NCBI RefSeq assembly: GCF_001618865.1
Contig: NZ_CP015136.1
Span: forward strand, 3,693,001-3,757,000
Reading direction: 5' to 3'
Length of the DNA: 64,000 nt
DNA from: Luteitalea pratensis
GTDB lineage: Bacteria > Acidobacteriota > Vicinamibacteria > Vicinamibacterales > Vicinamibacteraceae
A model generated the notes under the pieces. It worked only from the letters and a program-made list of their open reading frames with translations. It had not been told where the DNA came from and ran no database searches. A program made the position numbers and the translations under genes. Shown one piece after another: positions 6,876 through 45,067 of this stretch. How positions within the stretch are numbered: the stretch's first letter is position 1; each line of letters starts with the position of its first letter.

Positions 6876-6953
6876 GGTAGGGCCGGCTCTCCGAGCCGGC
6901 CGATCGCCTCGCCGACGACGAGTAGGCGGCCCGCTCGCAGAGCGGGCCCTACC
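6876..6953. repeat. REPIN-like element (REP family R, inverted pair)
   Basis: A 78-bp element made of two inverted REP units. The left unit begins GGTAGGGCC and contains a perfect 9-bp stem (GGCCGGCTC, loop TCC, GAGCCGGCC) at 6881-6901. The right unit contains a perfect 9-bp stem (GGCCCGCTC, loop GCA, GAGCGGGCC) at 6928-6948 and ends CCCTACC. The GTAG tetranucleotides lie at the outer ends, as in known REPINs. It sits inside an operon, between DUF4159 and moxR. Other family-R units are at 27101-27127, 27176-27202 and 33405-33431. Confidence 0.8.
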
Positions 6954-10829: not shown

Positions 10830-13800
10830 GTCCTGTACTGGATCCGGTCCGGCAGTCGCTCGATGGCCTGGCACGTGCCTGGTGGCGCGTCCGCTGGACG
10901 CGCGTGATTGCGCGCACCGCCGGCGCCGTCGCGGGTGTGCTGGTGGCGTGGGCCGTCGTCGATCGCCTGCGTCCGCTCGGGCGCTGGCCGCTCCTGCTCT
11001 CAGGCGTCGCCGTGGCCGCCATCGTCGCGGCAGCGGCGTGGTGGGTACAGAAACGGGCGCATGCGCACCCGCCCGTCGACCGCATGGCGCGCCTGGTCGA
11101 AGAGCAGTGTCCCGAGTTGGAGGCGACACTACGCAGTGCGCTCGATCCAGCGGTCGAGTTCAGTCCGCTCGGTTCGATCGTGCAGGCCGATGCGGTCGAC
11201 GCCCTGGCGCGACTCGACGAGGCACGCGTGGTCGACCCCGATGACCGCCGCCGCGCCCTCTTGTGGGCGGGTGGTGCGTTGGCCGGCGTCCTGCTCGCCG
11301 CGAGCCTGGCGGCGCCGACGGCCGTACGTGCGGCCCGTACCGCGCGGTTCGTGGTGGCGCCGCCCGCGCTCATGCTGCGCGTGACGCCGGGCGATCGGCG
11401 TGTCGTCAAGGGCACGCCGCTGGCAATCACTGCCGTCATCGAGGGTGCTCCCGGCGATCTCGACGTGGCCGCCCCGCAACTCGTCGTCGAAGGTGAAGGC
11501 GCGCGTGCCGTCGGCGCCTTCACGCGGACACCAACTGGCAGCTATGAAGTCAGGATTCCGTCGGTCGATCGCAGCTTCGCGTACCGGGTTCGGGCGGGTG
11601 GGTTGCGATCGGCGTCGTATCACGTCGAGGCGCTCGACCGTCCCCGCATCGAGGGCATCGACCTCGCGTATGTCTATCCCTCGTTCTCGGGATTGAAGCC
11701 GCGCACCGAGACAGACACCGGCGACATCTACGCGCCGGCGGGCACTACGGTGACCGTCAAGGTGCGCTCGTCCAAGCCGCTCAAGGCGGCTGAACTGCGC
11801 GCGACCGACGGCGAGGGTGCGCGGGCGCTGCCGTTGCAGGTGGTGGGCGAGCGGCAAGGCGAAGTGGCGTTCACGGTGGCGCGCGACGGCGCGTACCGGA
11901 TCGCCCTCACGGATACGGACGCCGTCGGCAATGGCGAGGACACCGAGTACTTCGTGCGGGTCATGGACGACCGGCCGCCCGACGTGCGCATCATCCGTCC
12001 GGCCGGCGATCGCGGCGCGACGCGGCTCGAGGAGGTCACACTCGAAGCGCGCGCCGAGGACGACTACGGCGTGCAGTCGCTCGAACTCGTCTATGCAGTG
12101 CGCGGCGGTCCCGAGCGAGTGGTGCCGCTCGGCGGCAACGGTCAGACGACGGCGGTGAGCGGGCGGCACACCGTGTATCTCGAGGACCTCGACGTCAAGC
12201 CAGGCGACTTCGTGAGCTACTACGCCAGGGCGCGCGACATCGGTCGCGGCAAGCGTTCGACCGAGTCACGCAGCGACATTTTCTTCCTCGAGATCAAGCC
12301 GACGGCGCAGGAGTTCACCGCCGCGCAGAGCAGTGCCATGGCGGGAGCTGGTGGCGGCGGCGAGATGGACGATCTCGTCGCGGCGCAGAAGGATGTCGTG
12401 TCGGCGACGTGGAAGCTGGAGCGGCGCTCCGCCGGTGGGCGATCCGCTTCGGACATCCGGGCGGTGGGCCGCGCCCAGGCGGAGGTACGCGACAAGTTGA
12501 GGCAGTCGGCGGGTGGCGCGGGGGCGGCGCCGGCTCCGCGACGAAGACGAGGCATCGAAGCCGCGGACGCGGAGGCACCACCGGTGCCGTTGCAGGCTGC
12601 GGGCGAGGCGATGGATCGCGCCGTGACACAACTCGACAAGCTGGACACGCGTAGCGCGATCACCCACGAGATGGATGCGCTCAACCAGCTCCTGAAGGCC
12701 GAGGCGGAGATTCGCCGCCGGCAGCTCGCGCGCCAGCAATCAGGACAGGGCGGCGGCCGCGGGCGCAGCGGCAACGAGGACCTCTCGGCGCTGTTCGACC
12801 AGGAGTTGATGCGGCAGCAGACCAACTACCAGCAGCAGAACAGCGTCGAGTCCCGGCAGGAGTCGACCAAGGGCGCATCGGCACTCGACAAGATCCGCGA
12901 GCTTGCGCGCCGTCAGGACGACCTCGCCCGCGAGCAGCAGCAGTTGGCCCGGGAGCGATCGCAGATGAGCGTGGAAGAGGCCAAGCGTCGTCTCGATCGG
13001 TTGACCCGTGAGCAGCAGCGCCTGCAGCAGGAGGCGCAGCAACTGGCGCAGCAGATGCAGAACGGCCAGCAGCCGGGCCAGCAGTCGCAGCAGGGCCAGA
13101 AGGGCCAGCAGGGGGAAAAGGGGCAGCAGGGCCAGCAGGCGCAGGAAGGCCAGCAGGGTCAGCAGGGTCAGGCGGGCCAGTCCCAGGGTGGGCAGTCGCA
13201 GGGTGGCGGACAGTCGCAGGGTGGTGCGTCGGCCGCCTCACGCGATCGCCTCCGGGAAGCGGCCCAGCAGATGGGCGAGGCTTCGCAACTCCAGCAGCAG
13301 TCGCCCGACCAGGCGGCGCAGCGCGGGTCGCGGTCGGCCCAGACGTTGCGTGACGCGGAGCGTGCGCTGCAGGCCGGCACTCCCGGCGAGCGGCAGCGCG
13401 CCGCCGGCGACGTTCAGCTCGAAGCGCGCGAACTCGCCGAGGCGCAGCGACAACTGGCGGCCCAGGCGGGGGAACTCGCGCAGCCGCAGAGTGGGGCGTC
13501 GGCCAACGAGCGTCGTCGCCAGCTTGCGGGAGAACAGGGACGCATCGCCGATCGCGTGGCGTCACTCGAGCGGCAGGTCCGAGAGCTCGCTCGCGGTGCC
13601 GATCCGGTGCGCGATCCGCTCGGCCAGGCCGCGCGCGAACTTCAGCGAGGCAAGACGACCGAGCAGCTGCAGGGGGCGGCGCGGCAGTTGCGCGAGGGCG
13701 GCACGCCGCAGGGCACCGACATCGCGGCGCAGCAGCGCGACGCGGCCCGCGTGCTCGATCGCGTGTCGTCGCTCGCCGGGCAGGCCAGCGGGCGTGGCAG

Positions 13801-14455
13801 CGGCGAGGCGCAGGCGCTCTCCGAGCGGCTCTCGGACACGCGCGACCTTCGCGATCGGTTGAAGTCACTCGAGGATCGCATCGCGGCGTTGGCGCAGCAG
13901 GCCGAGCGCGACGCCCATGCGCCCGGCAGCGAGGGTGGACAGCAGGGCCAGGCGAGTGGCAAGGACGGCACGCGTGGACAGTCCTCGACCGCACAGCGTG
14001 GACAGCCTGGCGATCAGGGTGCCTCGCAGGCAGGCAGTCGTGGTTCCAGCCAGGGTCAGGGTGACGGACAGGGACGCGGCGACACGCTGGAGGAACTGCG
14101 GCAGCTGCAACAGGAATACGCGCGCGAACTCCAGGACGCGGCCCGCATGGTGCAGGGCAGCAACGCGGGCGGTGCCGATCGCGGCGGCCGGCTGGCGACG
14201 CCGGAAAGCCAGGAGTTCAGCCGATCGGCCCCCGGCACGGAGGCCTTCAAGCAGGACTTCGCCCGGTGGGACTCGCTGCGCAAGGGTATCGCCAATGCCA
14301 TGGATCGCTACGAGGCGACCCTCGCGCAGCGCCTGGCCGAGCGTGAGGCCGCCGAGCGCGTGCAGGCGCCGCTGCGCGACAAGGTACCGGACCGCTACAC
14401 CGAGTCCGTCGTCCGCTACTACCAGTCGCTGAGCCGACGGCCGGAGTCTCGCTGA
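10826..14455 (+). CDS. Giant DUF4175-like membrane protein with Gln-rich coiled coil
   Basis: A 1209-aa protein. GTG start overlapping the previous stop (GTGA). Three hydrophobic segments lie within the first 165 residues. A beta-rich domain follows (about 170-500) that contains the ATDGEG and ARAEDDYGVQSLELVY motifs typical of DUF4175-like proteins. The C-terminal half is predicted alpha-helical coiled coil rich in Q, R, E and A. It holds a low-complexity Gly-Gln tract at about 755-805 (GQQGQKGQQGEKGQQGQ and SQGGQSQGG). It probably spans the periplasm within the MoxR/VWA complex. Function unknown. Confidence 0.85.
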   Translation: MSPVLDPVRQSLDGLARAWWRVRWTRVIARTAGAVAGVLVAWAVVDRLRPLGRWPLLLSGVAVAAIVAAAAWWVQKRAHAHPPVDRMARLVEEQCPELEATLRSALDPAVEFSPLGSIVQADAVDALARLDEARVVDPDDRRRALLWAGGALAGVLLAASLAAPTAVRAARTARFVVAPPALMLRVTPGDRRVVKGTPLAITAVIEGAPGDLDVAAPQLVVEGEGARAVGAFTRTPTGSYEVRIPSVDRSFAYRVRAGGLRSASYHVEALDRPRIEGIDLAYVYPSFSGLKPRTETDTGDIYAPAGTTVTVKVRSSKPLKAAELRATDGEGARALPLQVVGERQGEVAFTVARDGAYRIALTDTDAVGNGEDTEYFVRVMDDRPPDVRIIRPAGDRGATRLEEVTLEARAEDDYGVQSLELVYAVRGGPERVVPLGGNGQTTAVSGRHTVYLEDLDVKPGDFVSYYARARDIGRGKRSTESRSDIFFLEIKPTAQEFTAAQSSAMAGAGGGGEMDDLVAAQKDVVSATWKLERRSAGGRSASDIRAVGRAQAEVRDKLRQSAGGAGAAPAPRRRRGIEAADAEAPPVPLQAAGEAMDRAVTQLDKLDTRSAITHEMDALNQLLKAEAEIRRRQLARQQSGQGGGRGRSGNEDLSALFDQELMRQQTNYQQQNSVESRQESTKGASALDKIRELARRQDDLAREQQQLARERSQMSVEEAKRRLDRLTREQQRLQQEAQQLAQQMQNGQQPGQQSQQGQKGQQGEKGQQGQQAQEGQQGQQGQAGQSQGGQSQGGGQSQGGASAASRDRLREAAQQMGEASQLQQQSPDQAAQRGSRSAQTLRDAERALQAGTPGERQRAAGDVQLEARELAEAQRQLAAQAGELAQPQSGASANERRRQLAGEQGRIADRVASLERQVRELARGADPVRDPLGQAARELQRGKTTEQLQGAARQLREGGTPQGTDIAAQQRDAARVLDRVSSLAGQASGRGSGEAQALSERLSDTRDLRDRLKSLEDRIAALAQQAERDAHAPGSEGGQQGQASGKDGTRGQSSTAQRGQPGDQGASQAGSRGSSQGQGDGQGRGDTLEELRQLQQEYARELQDAARMVQGSNAGGADRGGRLATPESQEFSRSAPGTEAFKQDFARWDSLRKGIANAMDRYEATLAQRLAEREAAERVQAPLRDKVPDRYTESVVRYYQSLSRRPESR

Positions 14456-20239: not shown

Positions 20240-20283
20240 CGGCTCATTGTAGACTCAGGGGTCGGGGCCGGTGGCCGACGTGG

Positions 20284-20345
20284 GAACGTCGAACGCCGAA
20301 CGCCGAACGCTGAAGGCCGAATCGCAACGCCGAACATTGAAGAAC
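20284..20345. repeat. Intergenic heptamer tandem array (GAACGCY family)
   Basis: Units GAACGTC, GAACGCC, GAACGCC, GAACGCT and GAAGGCC run in exact 7-bp phase from 20284, then degenerate units continue to GAACATT at about 20332-20338. This is the same family as the array at the left end of the window, which marks it as a dispersed repeat. It lies between the rhomboid gene and the zinc-ribbon gene. Confidence 0.85.
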
Positions 20346-20387
20346 GAGTTCCAAGGCCCAAGGCCGACGGCCCTGCCCATAGTGACC

Positions 20388-20411
20388 GTCGACCTGAAGG
20401 TCGACGGCTAC
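20388..20411 (-). repeat. REP unit, family H
   Basis: On the minus strand this reads GTAGCC followed by a perfect 7-bp stem, GTCGACC, loop TTCA, GGTCGAC. An identical 24-bp copy lies at 21171-21194, and diverged copies are at 36740-36761 and 36794-36817. The 5'-GTAG plus hairpin is the defining architecture of REP sequences. Confidence 0.75.
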
Positions 20412-20447: not shown

Positions 20448-20520
20448 CGGTGCCCGGTACCCGGCACCGGCATGCAACGCTGATTCTCAGAACCCGGTAC
20501 CCGGCACCCGGTGCCCGACG
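20448..20520. repeat. Two heptamer clusters (CCCGGTR family)
   Basis: Units CGGTGCC, CGGTACC, CGGCACC occupy 20448-20468, and CCCGGTA, CCCGGCA, CCCGGTG, CCCGACG occupy 20493-20520, separated by 24 bp of unrelated sequence. The 7-bp phase is exact. The units GGTGCC and GGCACC are reverse complements and GGTACC is palindromic, so the tract can fold back on itself. It lies just upstream of the zinc-ribbon gene at 20534. Confidence 0.8.
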
Positions 20521-21150: not shown

Positions 21151-21170
21151 GAGTGGTGATCGAGCATTCC

Positions 21171-21194
21171 GTCGACCTGAAGGTCGACGGCTAC
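21171..21194 (-). repeat. REP unit, family H
   Basis: Exact copy of the unit at 20388-20411: minus-strand GTAGCC plus stem GTCGACC/GGTCGAC with loop TTCA. It lies in the 100-bp gap between two convergent gene ends (the small membrane protein and citrate synthase), a typical location for REP elements. Confidence 0.75.
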
Positions 21195-28670: not shown

Positions 28671-28680
28671 CCGGGCATCA

Positions 28681-28761
28681 GTCATTCGTCATTCGTCATT
28701 CGTCATTGGTCATGGGTAATATGGGTAATGACCAATGAGTAATGACCAATGACCAATGATC
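28681..28761. repeat. Heptamer array with inverted halves (GTCATTC / AATGACC)
   Basis: Units GTCATTC x3, GTCATTG, GTCATGG run from 28681 in 7-bp phase. The second half consists of AATGAGT, AATGACC, AATGACC, AATGATC (28734-28761), the reverse complement of the first family. A perfect 10-bp inverted repeat CATTGGTCAT (28705-28714) / ATGACCAATG (28728-28737) joins the two halves. The array ends at the stop codon of the minus-strand regulator gene and separates two convergent genes, so it may act as a terminator-like hairpin. Confidence 0.85.
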
Positions 28762-36710: not shown

Positions 36711-36853
36711 CCTTCAGGCGTCCACGAAGCGGTTTCCACGTAGCCGTCGCCCTTGGTCGACGGGCAGCACCACGATGCGGTCCCCAGACGTCAGCGTCGA
36801 GCAAGCTCGACGCCTACAGTTTCGGTCATGAGCCTTCAGGCGTCCACGAAGCG
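36711..36853. repeat. 22-bp direct repeat flanking a REPIN-like element (family H)
   Basis: CCTTCAGGCGTCCACGAAGC recurs at 36711 and 36834. The second copy is the true 3' end of the response-regulator gene (minus strand ...RFVDA stop) and the first is a detached duplicate of it. Between them lies a 78-bp inverted pair of family-H REP units, 36740-36761 (starts GTAGCC) and 36794-36817 (ends CCTAC, with a stem GCGTCGAG/CTCGACGC). The layout looks like an element insertion with local duplication. Confidence 0.7.
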
Positions 36854-42048: not shown

Positions 42049-43668
42049 ATGACAGGATCTTCGCGCGCACGGCGCCTGGCCATCGGCGCCCTGCTGTCGG
42101 CGTCGCTTGGCGCGGCCTGCGGCGGACAGGAGGCCACGCCTTCCGCGCCCGCAACGTCTCCCGCTGCTGCTGCCACCACGTCGGCGGCCCCGGCACCACC
42201 AGCCAATCCCGTCCCGGCTCCGACTGCGGACCCGGCCCTGGCCGCCACGGTGCCTGCCGATGCACCCATCCCTCCCACCGCGTCTCCCTACGACGCGCTT
42301 CCGGAGGGAGTACGGCGCCTGATCGACCGGCCGTCCTCAGGCGACCTCGACGAGATGGTGAAGCGGCGGTCGATCCGCGTCGGTGTCACGTTCAACCGCA
42401 CCCACTACTTCATCGATCGTGGCCAGGAGCACGGGCTCACCTATGAGGCGCTGAAGTCGTTCGAAAAGGACCTCAACGAACGTCTCAAGACCGGCAACCT
42501 CAAGGTCCACGTGGTCATCGTGCCGATGTCACGCGATCAACTGCATGCGGCCCTGGCGGGCGGAACCATCGACATGGTCGCGGCCATGGTCACCGTCCGG
42601 CCGGAGTTGGAAAAGGTCGCCGCCTTCTCGGTGCCGACACGCACCAACGTGAACCAGGTGGTGGTGACCGGACCGGGTGCACCGCCGCTCGCGACGCTCG
42701 ACGACCTCGCGGGACGGGAGGTGTTCGTTCGCAAGGCGAGCGCATATTACGGTTCGCTGACCCAGCTCAGCACGCAGCTGACCGGCCGCGGCAAGCCGGC
42801 CATCGTCATCCATGAGGCGCCGGACGTGCTCGAGGACGATGACATCCTCGAGATGGTCAACGCCGGCCTGATGCCGATCACCATTGTCGACGACTACCTG
42901 GCGCAGTTCTGGCAGCAGGTGTTCACCGACATCAAGGTGCATCCGGATCTCGCCGTCCGGACCGGCGGAACGCTGGCCATCGCCTTCCGCAAGGAGAATC
43001 CGAAGCTGCGTGCCGTGGTGGACGAGTGGGTCCTCAAGCACGGTCGAGGCGACACGTTGCGTGCGGTGCTCGAGCAGCGCTACCTGAAGAACGTGAAGTT
43101 TGCCAAGAACGCCACGACGGATGCCGAGCGGCGCAAGTTCAGGGAGGTGATCGAGCTGTTCAGGAAGTACGGGGGCCAGTACGACATGGATTACCTGTTG
43201 ATGGCGGCGCAGGGATACCAGGAATCGACGCTGGACAACAACGTGAAGAGCCCCGTCGGCGCGGTGGGCGTGATGCAGGTGATGCCACCGACGGGCAAGC
43301 AGCTCAATGTCGGGGACATCCACAAGCTGGAGCCCAACATCCATGCCGGCGTCAAGTACATGCGGTTCATGATGGACCAGTACTTCAAGGACGAATCGAT
43401 CGACCCGTTGAACAAGGGGCTCATGACGTTTGCCGCCTACAACGCCGGGCCGGGTCGACTGCGGCAACTGCGGCGGGAGGCAGCGGAGCGCGGGCTCAAC
43501 CCCAACGTCTGGTTCGGCAATGTCGAGCGCGTCGCATCCGAGCGGATCGGCCGCGAGACGGTCACCTACGTCAGCAACATCTACAAGTACTACCTCGCAT
43601 ACACGCTCTTGAGCGCGCAGCACGACAGGCGGGTCGACGCAAAGGCGCAAATAAGAAAGTCGCAGTGA
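42049..43668 (+). CDS. MltF-like lytic murein transglycosylase lipoprotein
   Basis: A 539-aa lipoprotein. Signal with lipobox ending GAAC (Cys about 24), then a Pro/Ala-rich linker to about residue 85. A solute-binding-type domain (IRVGVTFNRTHYFIDRGQE) fills 105-345. A C-terminal SLT domain has the catalytic Glu in AAQGYQESTLDNN and GAVGVMQVMPPTG, with FAAYNAGPGRL. This is the domain order of MltF, which cleaves peptidoglycan from the outer membrane. AGGAAAG precedes the ATG. Confidence 0.93.
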   Translation: MTGSSRARRLAIGALLSASLGAACGGQEATPSAPATSPAAAATTSAAPAPPANPVPAPTADPALAATVPADAPIPPTASPYDALPEGVRRLIDRPSSGDLDEMVKRRSIRVGVTFNRTHYFIDRGQEHGLTYEALKSFEKDLNERLKTGNLKVHVVIVPMSRDQLHAALAGGTIDMVAAMVTVRPELEKVAAFSVPTRTNVNQVVVTGPGAPPLATLDDLAGREVFVRKASAYYGSLTQLSTQLTGRGKPAIVIHEAPDVLEDDDILEMVNAGLMPITIVDDYLAQFWQQVFTDIKVHPDLAVRTGGTLAIAFRKENPKLRAVVDEWVLKHGRGDTLRAVLEQRYLKNVKFAKNATTDAERRKFREVIELFRKYGGQYDMDYLLMAAQGYQESTLDNNVKSPVGAVGVMQVMPPTGKQLNVGDIHKLEPNIHAGVKYMRFMMDQYFKDESIDPLNKGLMTFAAYNAGPGRLRQLRREAAERGLNPNVWFGNVERVASERIGRETVTYVSNIYKYYLAYTLLSAQHDRRVDAKAQIRKSQ

Positions 43669-43693: not shown

Positions 43694-43756
43694 CTCCAGC
43701 CTCCAGCCTCCAGCCTCCAGCCTACGCGTTACGGCTTACGGCGTATGGCTTACGCC
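43694..43756. repeat. Heptamer tandem array of nine units
   Basis: Nine consecutive 7-bp units: CTCCAGC x4, CTACGCG, TTACGGC x2, GTATGGC, TTACGCC. The phase never slips over 63 bp, although the unit sequence changes midway. The array ends immediately before the stop codon of the minus-strand sialidase-like gene, in the gap between two convergent genes. Confidence 0.85.
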
Positions 43757-45067
43757 TCAAGGCAGGCGCATCAAGCCGGCGCGAACCTGCGAGTCGTCGC
43801 CACCTGTCGTCCAGGCGGTGAACACGCCTGCAGACGACGACGCCAGCACGGGATGGCTGGCGTTGCCCTGGGAGGGCAGTCGCACGACCTCGCCGAACGC
43901 GGGCGCTGCGTCGGCCTTGACGGTGAGCCGGCGCAGGGCGGCAACCCGGCGGCCATCGATCAGTTCGTCCCACGCCACCACGAGGGTCCCGTCGGCTGCG
44001 AGCGCGATCTGGGGATGCATCGGTTTGGGGCTGCCCAGCGTCGGGATGCGCACACGCGGCGTGAATCGCTGGCCGTCCCGCGAGGACGCGTAGAACAGGG
44101 CCCCGACCGGTTCGTCGCCGCCAATGACGGTGGGCCAGACGATGTGCGTGACGCCGCCGGCGTCCACCACCAGCGCGGGCCCGTCGTCAGGGCAGCCGTT
44201 GATGGCCCAGCCGTCCTCGCTGACCCGTGAGGGTGCGGAGAACGACCGGCCACCGTCCCGCGAGATCGCGAAGGCGATGTCTCGCAGGTCGCCCGGATAC
44301 ACGTGACGCCACGCCGCGACGAGCATGCGTCCTCGGCCAGCGGCGAGGGCGGTCTTGCAGCAGTAGCACACGCCTGCGGTGATTTCACGTTCCTTCACGG
44401 CCCCGGTGCCCGACGACGCGTAGAACAATGACGACCCTTGCGCCATCACCGATGAATCGCCATTGGCAGGCGCGCCGTGGCCATGGCGTGCGGTCTTCGC
44501 CGTCTCGCCCTGGGCGGCACGACGCGCGGCGAGTCCGCGGTGATCGAGCCATACGGCATGCGCGTCGCCACGATCGTCGACCGCCAGTGCGGGCCAGCCG
44601 CGGTCCCCGATCGCGCCGTCCGACTGCAGGTCGATCGGCGCCGTGAACGTCAGGCCTCCATCCGTCGATCGCGCCACCTTGATGCCAGTGGCCGCGCCGC
44701 GCGCATTCCACAGCACGGTGACCGTCGGCACCGCCTGGCCGGCGACCTTGTGGAGGGCGACGCGTGGCGGCAGTTCTCCGCCCAGACGACCCTCACCCGG
44801 GGTACGGTTTACCTGCACGGGAGCGCCAAACGCGCGCCCGCCATCCCGGCTCGTGGCGACGAACACGTCGGCCTTGCCGTCGGCGCTGGCGCCCCACGCG
44901 ACCGCCACGAACGCTTGTTCGGCCGCCACGGAGGGCGTGGCGTCGGCGCGGCCGGGGACATCGAATGCCACGACGCCGCCGTCGGGAAGGGGCGCGGCGG
45001 CCGGCCAGGTCGCCAGCCCCGCGGCGATGGCGGCAACGAGGAGCACCTTCAGGTATCTGCGTGACAT
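43757..45067 (-). CDS. Secreted sialidase-like (BNR repeat) propeller protein
   Basis: A 436-aa exported protein with signal peptide at residues 1-24. Asp-box/BNR motifs such as TSRDGGRAF, RSTDGGLTF, SRDGGRSFSAP and SSRDGQRF are spaced through the chain, predicting a six-bladed propeller like that of sialidases. No complete sialidase Arg triad can be assigned. An unusual Cys cluster GVCYCCKTALA lies near residue 225, with another Cys in INGCPDDGP, perhaps a metal site or disulfides. Start at 45067 gives the signal peptide. Confidence 0.8.
   Translation of the reverse strand: MSRRYLKVLLVAAIAAGLATWPAAAPLPDGGVVAFDVPGRADATPSVAAEQAFVAVAWGASADGKADVFVATSRDGGRAFGAPVQVNRTPGEGRLGGELPPRVALHKVAGQAVPTVTVLWNARGAATGIKVARSTDGGLTFTAPIDLQSDGAIGDRGWPALAVDDRGDAHAVWLDHRGLAARRAAQGETAKTARHGHGAPANGDSSVMAQGSSLFYASSGTGAVKEREITAGVCYCCKTALAAGRGRMLVAAWRHVYPGDLRDIAFAISRDGGRSFSAPSRVSEDGWAINGCPDDGPALVVDAGGVTHIVWPTVIGGDEPVGALFYASSRDGQRFTPRVRIPTLGSPKPMHPQIALAADGTLVVAWDELIDGRRVAALRRLTVKADAAPAFGEVVRLPSQGNASHPVLASSSAGVFTAWTTGGDDSQVRAGLMRLP

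Follow-up and report, generated by a model that had tools for sequence, protein, structure and literature searches.

A tandem array in the window (the whole 64-kb stretch of DNA analysed here, which lies in a chromosome of 7,480,314 bp) occupies the space between two convergent genes and changes its repeat word along its length while retaining a 7-bp unit. The locus raises the question of whether the 7-bp phase is kept through the change of word and, if so, what kind of process would preserve the period and the place of an array and not its word. The genes were called by our own codon-score caller, which is not a validated gene finder.

42355–43668, plus strand: upstream convergent gene, 437 residues as called, with an open frame that extends back to 42007
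43694–43756, no strand assigned: featured nine-unit heptamer array, filling 63 bp of the 88-bp convergent gap
43757–45067, minus strand: downstream convergent gene, 436 residues as called, with a stop codon that adjoins the array

The featured array consists of four copies of CTCCAGC followed by CTACGCG, two copies of TTACGGC, GTATGGC and TTACGCC, and its neighbouring units match at 7, 7, 7, 3, 4, 7, 5 and 4 of their seven positions. Over the whole array, 44 of 56 positions match at lag 7 (mean 15.9 and maximum 31 in 100,000 shuffles), and the nine-unit period-7 array of the preliminary description is therefore real. That description also held that phase is kept through the change of unit. The last five units on their own (20 of 28 matches at lag 7; shuffle maximum 16) and the intermediates in sister arrays are consistent with this claim, but the hand-over itself (units 4–6) yields just 7 of 14 matches (P 0.039), so that the featured copy alone argues only weakly for phase keeping at this point.

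The array ends exactly at the stop of the minus-strand gene, as had been described: its final base is 43756, and the TGA occupies 43757–43759. On the other side, the stop codon of the plus-strand gene ends at 43668 and is separated from the array by 25 bp. The product of the plus-strand gene, which we take to be a putative protein of the solute-binding plus lytic-transglycosylase type, has a C-terminal segment with weak matches in many relatives. The 88-bp gap between the genes is predicted to be unstructured (z +0.49), without the stable hairpin of an intrinsic terminator, and contains no GTAG-headed palindrome of the REP/RAYT kind among the matches listed. CTCCAGC and TTACGGC differ from the Xanthomonas word (GGGAATC or GGGANTN), and GGGAATC-like words compose only part of the vocabulary described below. 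Neither featured word contains the run of three G or C on which a G-quadruplex depends. The array does exhibit tandem direct repetition of a 7-bp unit, as in heptameric STRRs or SSRs.

Four further arrays had been named in the window.

1–95, no strand assigned: drifting heptamer array of GAACGCT/GAACGCC
20276–20345 (earlier given as 20284–20345), no strand assigned: heptamer array of GAACGCC, with a CCAAGGC stretch next to it at 20351–20373
20448–20520, no strand assigned: interrupted heptamer array of ACCCGGT/GCCCGGT
28681–28761, no strand assigned: inverted array pair GTCATTC ... AATGACC, filling a convergent gap

Each of the four exceeds all of its 20,000 shuffles at lag 7 and thus shares the period of 7, although the array at 20448–20520 does so barely (36 against a maximum of 35) and lies below the threshold of the genome-wide counts. 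The four unit families proposed for the window are roughly right once the arrays at 1–95 and 20284–20345 are combined into one family (GAACGCY), which leaves ACCCGGT, the inverted pair GTCATTC/AATGACC and CTCCAGC/TTACGGC as the others. A tandem repeat of another kind, with 9/27-bp units (CAGCAGGGC), is located at 13070–13224 inside the long called gene 10904–14455 and by arithmetic reads Gln-Gln-Gly in frame.

Period-7 arrays are abundant outside the window. The window and 40 spaced 20-kb stretches of the same genome (G000) compose a sample of 864 kb, in which a region was counted at period p when 21 or more of 28 bases were identical to those p positions away; this threshold was used in most counts and was replaced by 16/21 for pairs of neighbouring arrays and by 15/21 for the comparison of gaps between two species. 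Period 7 is represented by 99 intergenic, 13 mixed and 4 coding regions, a raw density of 134 per Mb that extrapolates to ∼1,000 in the chromosome. Period 8 accounts for 22 regions, all intergenic. Other periods are rare or absent: none at 5 and 13, one at 4, nine at 6 (all coding), two intergenic and eight coding at 9, five at 10, four intergenic at 11, and one intergenic and six coding at 12. Twenty shuffles of the intergenic segments contain zero regions at period 7 or 8. The autocorrelation of the sampled non-coding DNA peaks at lags 7, 14 and 21, and masking of the arrays lowers the lag-7 value from 0.301 to 0.277 (median 0.273). The preliminary description was to be given up if the enrichment were not genome-wide or if arrays lay equally in coding sequence; in the sample, the enrichment is genome-wide and the arrays are nearly all non-coding. 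The arrays also display the dispersal at many, mainly intergenic loci that is characteristic of heptameric STRRs. The period-8 arrays (stretches L010, L011, L019, L026 and others) use their own, often A+T-rich words (AAATTCTG, AATTCTGC, AACTTCTG, AATGCCGG).

Each relative is represented by a single stretch or a few, some picked via a protein-search match and others being contig beginnings. The congener G001 contains 32 intergenic, 4 mixed and 3 coding period-7 regions in 480 kb, and G002 contains 14, 0 and 0 in 80 kb. In 60 kb each, the corresponding counts are 1, 0 and 1 in G004 and 4, 1 and 0 in G005, and G006 has none at this threshold and three at the looser threshold of 16/21. When 19 genomes of the order are pooled, period 7 leads (12, 3 and 2), followed by its multiple 14 and then by period 9 (1, 0 and 6), and the samples of 10 of these 19 genomes are devoid of period-7 arrays. 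Other classes of the phylum (19 stretches; 325 kb) contribute 20 raw period-7 regions, which come from 6 of the 19 stretches, together with six regions at period 12, four each at 8 and 9, three at 6 and none at 4, 5, 10, 11 and 13; the length includes stretches without any G or C, of which there are 2 among 20 phylum stretches. No period-7 region was found in the single stretch from another order of the same class or in 50 kb of Escherichia coli.

Arrays are preferentially placed behind stop codons. In G000, arrays are present in 26 of the 76 convergent gaps, in 50 of the 263 co-directional gaps and in 8 of the 88 divergent gaps, and 47 of the 66 arrays in co-directional gaps are nearer to the 3′ end of a gene, with 18 nearer to a 5′ end. 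Of the 107 array sides that face the 3′ end of a gene, 40 are no more than 12 bp from it (11.1 expected), and of the 81 that face a 5′ end, 10 are that close (7.6 expected). The same arrangement is observed in G001 (8 of 37 convergent, 22 of 144 co-directional and 5 of 50 divergent gaps; 16 arrays nearer the 3′ end and 7 nearer the 5′ end of 23), where 14 of 34 sides lie within 12 bp of a 3′ end (4.9 expected) and 6 of 32 within 12 bp of a 5′ end (4.1 expected). The sense-strand G/C skew of the co-directional arrays exhibits no clear bias in G000 (29 positive and 33 negative of 66), and the small sample from G001 gives 13 positive and 6 negative of 23. A Rho/rut or other strand-specific RNA signal was rejected because the skew is not clear and the common words occur in both orientations. 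No polarity of array growth from the gene side is detected (16 versus 19 of 40). Period-8 arrays in co-directional gaps lack a 3′-end preference (7 versus 9 of 16).

Within arrays, the nearest units are the most alike. In the 94 chains of at least five units from G000, unit similarity declines from 0.856 between neighbours to 0.696 six units apart; it is flat at ∼0.777 when the unit order is shuffled and is likewise flat in a star simulation. The fall is weaker in the 30 chains of G001 (0.853 to 0.744 at four units, level afterwards). In 17 of 108 G000 arrays, words that differ by three or more substitutions coexist. Runs of at least two CTCCAGC units were located at 15 loci, the window and 14 others, these 14 being among 17 other places examined, of which 3 are without such a run. 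An in-phase one-substitution variant flanks the pure run at 17 of the 30 run edges, and a match of at least 5 of 7 is found at 20 of 30 (chance 0.021 per edge). The intermediates between CTCCAGC and CTACGGC that are missing from the featured copy are present at two loci. The array near 1422304 reads CTCCAGC, CTCCGGC, CTACGGC, CTACGGC, TTGCGTC, TCACGTC, TCATGTC, TCAAGCC and TGAGACC, and that near 1467.5 kb reads CTAACGC, four copies of CTCCAGC, CTGCGGG, CTACGGC and CTGCGGC. A mobile element that carries the array was rejected, as BLAST of the window against the other CTCCAGC loci matches inside the array only. The idea that hairpin-prone units drive expansion was also rejected: the tandem energies of 40 common units have a rank of 0.62 against permuted units, where chance gives 0.5. 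At 12341–12780 of stretch L015 (G000, 2.33 Mb), there are two copies of a composite array (GAACGCY, then GGGAGTC) at a distance of ∼330 bp; a shorter GAACGCY array lies between them, and palindromes are nearby.

The vocabulary of words is large, and the same words recur. In G000, 151 word-by-locus occurrences fall into 63 classes (∼135 expected), and the commonest word occurs 13 times (at most 5 in simulation). The tandem dimer of CTCCAGC is found 41 times in G000 and not in four congeners and two other family members; it is present in 5 of 33 other genomes, one of which, from the same order, has 7. The dimer of GGGYACC is found 319 times in G000, whereas none of 118 other genomes of the phylum has more than two copies, about the frequency of its reversed control there; no congener is among these 118, and GGGCACC arrays do occur in the congeners G001 and G002. 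The reversed patterns of the two dimers are found 0 times in G000. G001 has 24 word classes, of which 12 recur in the G000 set of 63. The recurrence of words within a genome may reflect copying between loci or a biased process. A seven-position consensus obtained by EM has 4.91 bits in G000 (permuted, 4.16 ± 0.19), 5.16 in G001 (4.76 ± 0.26) and 4.60 elsewhere (4.14 ± 0.20), a suggestive result that was set aside because the word classes of one genome are related to one another by mutation. Words of the alternating purine-pyrimidine pattern RRYRYRY are absent from 149 classes of G000, G001 and other genomes (16.2 expected from G+C-matched natural intergenic heptamers), a deficit picked out post hoc from ten purine-pyrimidine patterns.

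The place of an array is partly kept between two species while its word is replaced. Comparison of 240 kb from each of the chromosomes of G000 and a congener, whose orthologous proteins are on average 80–86% identical, matched 77 orthologous gaps. Arrays are present in both species in 16 of these gaps, in G000 only in 11, in the congener only in 9 and in neither in 41. Given gap class and length, 11.0 ± 1.8 gaps occupied in both species are expected (P 0.007), a value that does not come from fresh data because the compared regions were enlarged from, and include, the two stretches in which shared gaps were first seen. Fifteen of the 16 are co-directional and one is divergent; none of six convergent gaps is occupied in both. 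No unit class is common to the two species in 15 of the 16, and the unit distance is no smaller at orthologous gaps (1.81) than at random gaps (1.64), so that homology of individual units between the species is not claimed.

Heptameric intergenic repeats are known from other bacteria; we have not found many drifting words with one period described. The preliminary description likened the arrays to STRRs of cyanobacteria, a comparison that holds for period and dispersal but has to be widened to the GGGAATC repeats of Xanthomonas, which are also a nearest described relative (PMC4692102). That paper describes the Xanthomonas repeats as 89–93% intergenic, very near the stop codon of the gene before them, rare in divergent gaps, present on both strands with frequent inverted pairs, and in the same gene context in a related species for 83%. 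The arrays analysed here share with them the period of 7, dispersal, intergenic location behind stop codons, scarcity in divergent gaps, occurrence on both strands and inverted pairs, although the excess of inverted pairs is slight in G000. In contrast to the one G-rich word of Xanthomonas (GGGAATC/GGGANTN), dozens of words are used here, most arrays are not G4-capable, and the words drift in phase inside arrays and are replaced between two species at shared gaps. Cyanobacterial heptameric STRRs (Calothrix and Nostoc/Anabaena) likewise occur as tandem heptamers at many loci. Three different heptamers are reported for Calothrix; unlike here, such genomes are described as using few words each, and Nostoc as having only few inverted pairs (PMC4692102). 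The TAACTGA direct repeats of marine Beggiatoaceae are intergenic heptamers whose spread is described as unexplained, but they represent a single word, which in the BOGUAY genome mostly precedes start codons at close range, whereas many words, mostly behind stops, are found here (PMC4679880). GTAG-tagged REPs are similarly dispersed and often downstream of genes but are 20–40 bp palindromes and not tandem heptamers; they are reported from Proteobacteria, Cyanobacteria, Chloroflexi and PVC, and the main text names Acidobacteria once, in connection with transposases (PMC3733652). A 2007 report of heptamer over-representation in many bacteria is cited in PMC4692102, which states that no detailed literature on heptameric repeats existed as of 2015. 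A repeat census of 2025 finds enriched 6–9 bp units in prokaryotic phyla, and the word Acidobacteriota does not appear in its main text (PMC12699852). Our literature search, which covered few subscription papers, retrieved no description of heptameric repeats in Acidobacteria, in agreement with the preliminary description.

The featured array is probably one of many dispersed heptamer arrays of the STRR/Xanthomonas type, grown unit by unit through 7-bp copying and point mutation in permissive 3′ flanks. Several observations outline this reading: the step is 7 bp with a minor 8-bp class, the sites are non-coding and behind stops, nearest neighbours are most alike, in-phase one-substitution variants often flank pure runs, and places are partly common to two species whereas the units there have been replaced. 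The skew, the tandem-unit hairpins and the fold of the featured gap give no indication of a signal that depends on strand or folding. We infer growth by a 7-bp copying step. Arrays would lengthen and shorten by local copying of one unit, through replication slippage or a similar 7-nt misalignment, and a point mutation may enter a copied unit and then spread. Because units would be copied one at a time, the phase would be kept automatically while the word walks, in the featured case possibly from CTCCAGC through CTCCGGC/CTACGGC-like words to TTACGGC. Arrays would persist where a change of length is harmless, as in 3′ flanks and convergent gaps, and would be purged from coding and promoter DNA. 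Local slippage alone leaves unexplained the recurrence of the same words at many loci, the choice of 7 over 5 or 6, and the absence of RRYRYRY (0 of 149). The weaker fall of similarity in G001 also counts against it, as does the co-occupancy of gaps in two species, which could also mean selection.

Selection is central to an unlikely alternative that nevertheless carries some weight, in which the arrays are selected 3′-end elements (bidirectional terminators, transcript-end stabilisers or insulators) and inverted pairs are the arms of long hairpins that change together. The location behind stop codons agrees with it, as does the report that G4-capable Xanthomonas repeats lie at the starts or stops of transcripts at a higher frequency than control repeats do (PMC4692102). 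Among neighbouring arrays 60–500 bp apart, pooled over all genomes, 14 pairs are inverted, 3 same-strand, 4 both and 16 unrelated. A strong partner in the same gap is inverted for 43 and direct for 14 of 158 arrays (pairs counted from both ends), with 28 inverted and 3 direct of 66 in the other genome sets. At one orthologous gap with conserved flanks, inverted pairs are present in both species but are built from different words, and the gap 28671–28759 of the window folds as a long hairpin (z −4.82). However, the inverted excess is slight in G000 itself (15 versus 11 of 92), where the direct match is more often the better one (33 versus 27). It is also small in pairs 0–60 bp apart (12 inverted, 9 same-strand, 2 both and 15 unrelated) and 500–2000 bp apart (7, 5, 2 and 30). 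Moreover, array gaps are not consistently more structured than others: the mean z is −1.66 for 54 array gaps and −1.02 for the first 90 array-free gaps in G000 but −1.27 for 27 and −1.58 for 90 in G001, and the featured array is single and unstructured.

The recurring vocabulary, including the CTCCAGC dimers of G000 that four congeners lack, would be accounted for if array pieces were copied between loci by ectopic gene conversion, template switching or a REP/RAYT-linked process, each genome homogenising its own vocabulary as eukaryotic satellites do. We regard this as rather improbable as the main explanation. Heterogeneous 24-mers are shared by distant loci in 37 of 11,175 pairs within G000 and 7 of 1,891 within G001 against 2 of 9,300 between them, 15 times more commonly within than between species, although the pairs are not independent. 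A similar order of hand-over recurs at three loci with unrelated flanks, and arrays and GTAG-headed palindromes share gaps in G000 (21 versus 13.3 expected; P 0.006). The latter association is not significant in G001 (6 versus 3.7; P 0.12), no flank homology marks a mobile unit, and the vocabulary is only partly private, given the classes shared with G001 and the seven CTCCAGC dimers of another genome. A small connected vocabulary could also recreate words independently, since 97% of word classes lie one substitution away from another class (82% in permuted sets). G-quadruplex elements, an explanation put forward for the heptamers of Xanthomonas and Nostoc, are very improbable here. Although 49 of 150 arrays in G000, 26 of 62 in G001 and 10 of 58 in other genomes are G3-capable, two thirds of G000 arrays are incapable; the word list refutes a general explanation of this kind, which might hold for the GGG subset. 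The weak hand-over of the single featured copy would fit a chance or low-complexity artefact of a G+C-rich genome, but this explanation is already refuted by the array-free shuffles, the reversed patterns (0 versus 41 and 319) and the agreement of pooled samples from other genomes.

Beyond unit-by-unit growth at single loci, a wider proposal is possible, which we advance tentatively and would not call probable: Acidobacteriota may possess a period-locked, sequence-indifferent process that makes heptamer and, less often, octamer arrays in 3′ flanks, with positions that partly outlive sequences and a drifting vocabulary that is homogenised across loci. Such a process would parallel, in bacteria, the concerted evolution of satellite DNA. 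What stays constant would then be the 7-bp step and the place and not the word, so that explanations by a bound motif or a G-quadruplex could not be general and a 7-nt step intrinsic to a polymerase or to recombination would be called for. Dozens of words with one period separate period from sequence, which a one-word Xanthomonas genome cannot do, and a many-word genome makes the question of why seven testable by mutation accumulation.

REP-type palindromes with a GTAG head (for example, GTAGGCGTCGAGCTTGCTCGACGC and GTAGCCGTCGACCTTCAGGTCGACGG), some of which adjoin arrays, are located in the window at 6877–6952, 20386–20411, 21169–21194 and 36740–36817 and in many other G000 stretches, with 117 in the 864 kb, of which 97 are intergenic. 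The whole genome has only four Y1_Tnp matches, two of which are adjacent pieces of one interrupted frame. In G001, two co-directional gaps (L094, 1266–1393; L099, 5210–5336) consist nearly entirely of GAAATTT-type arms around palindromic cores, and the arms of the two gaps are similar while the cores differ.
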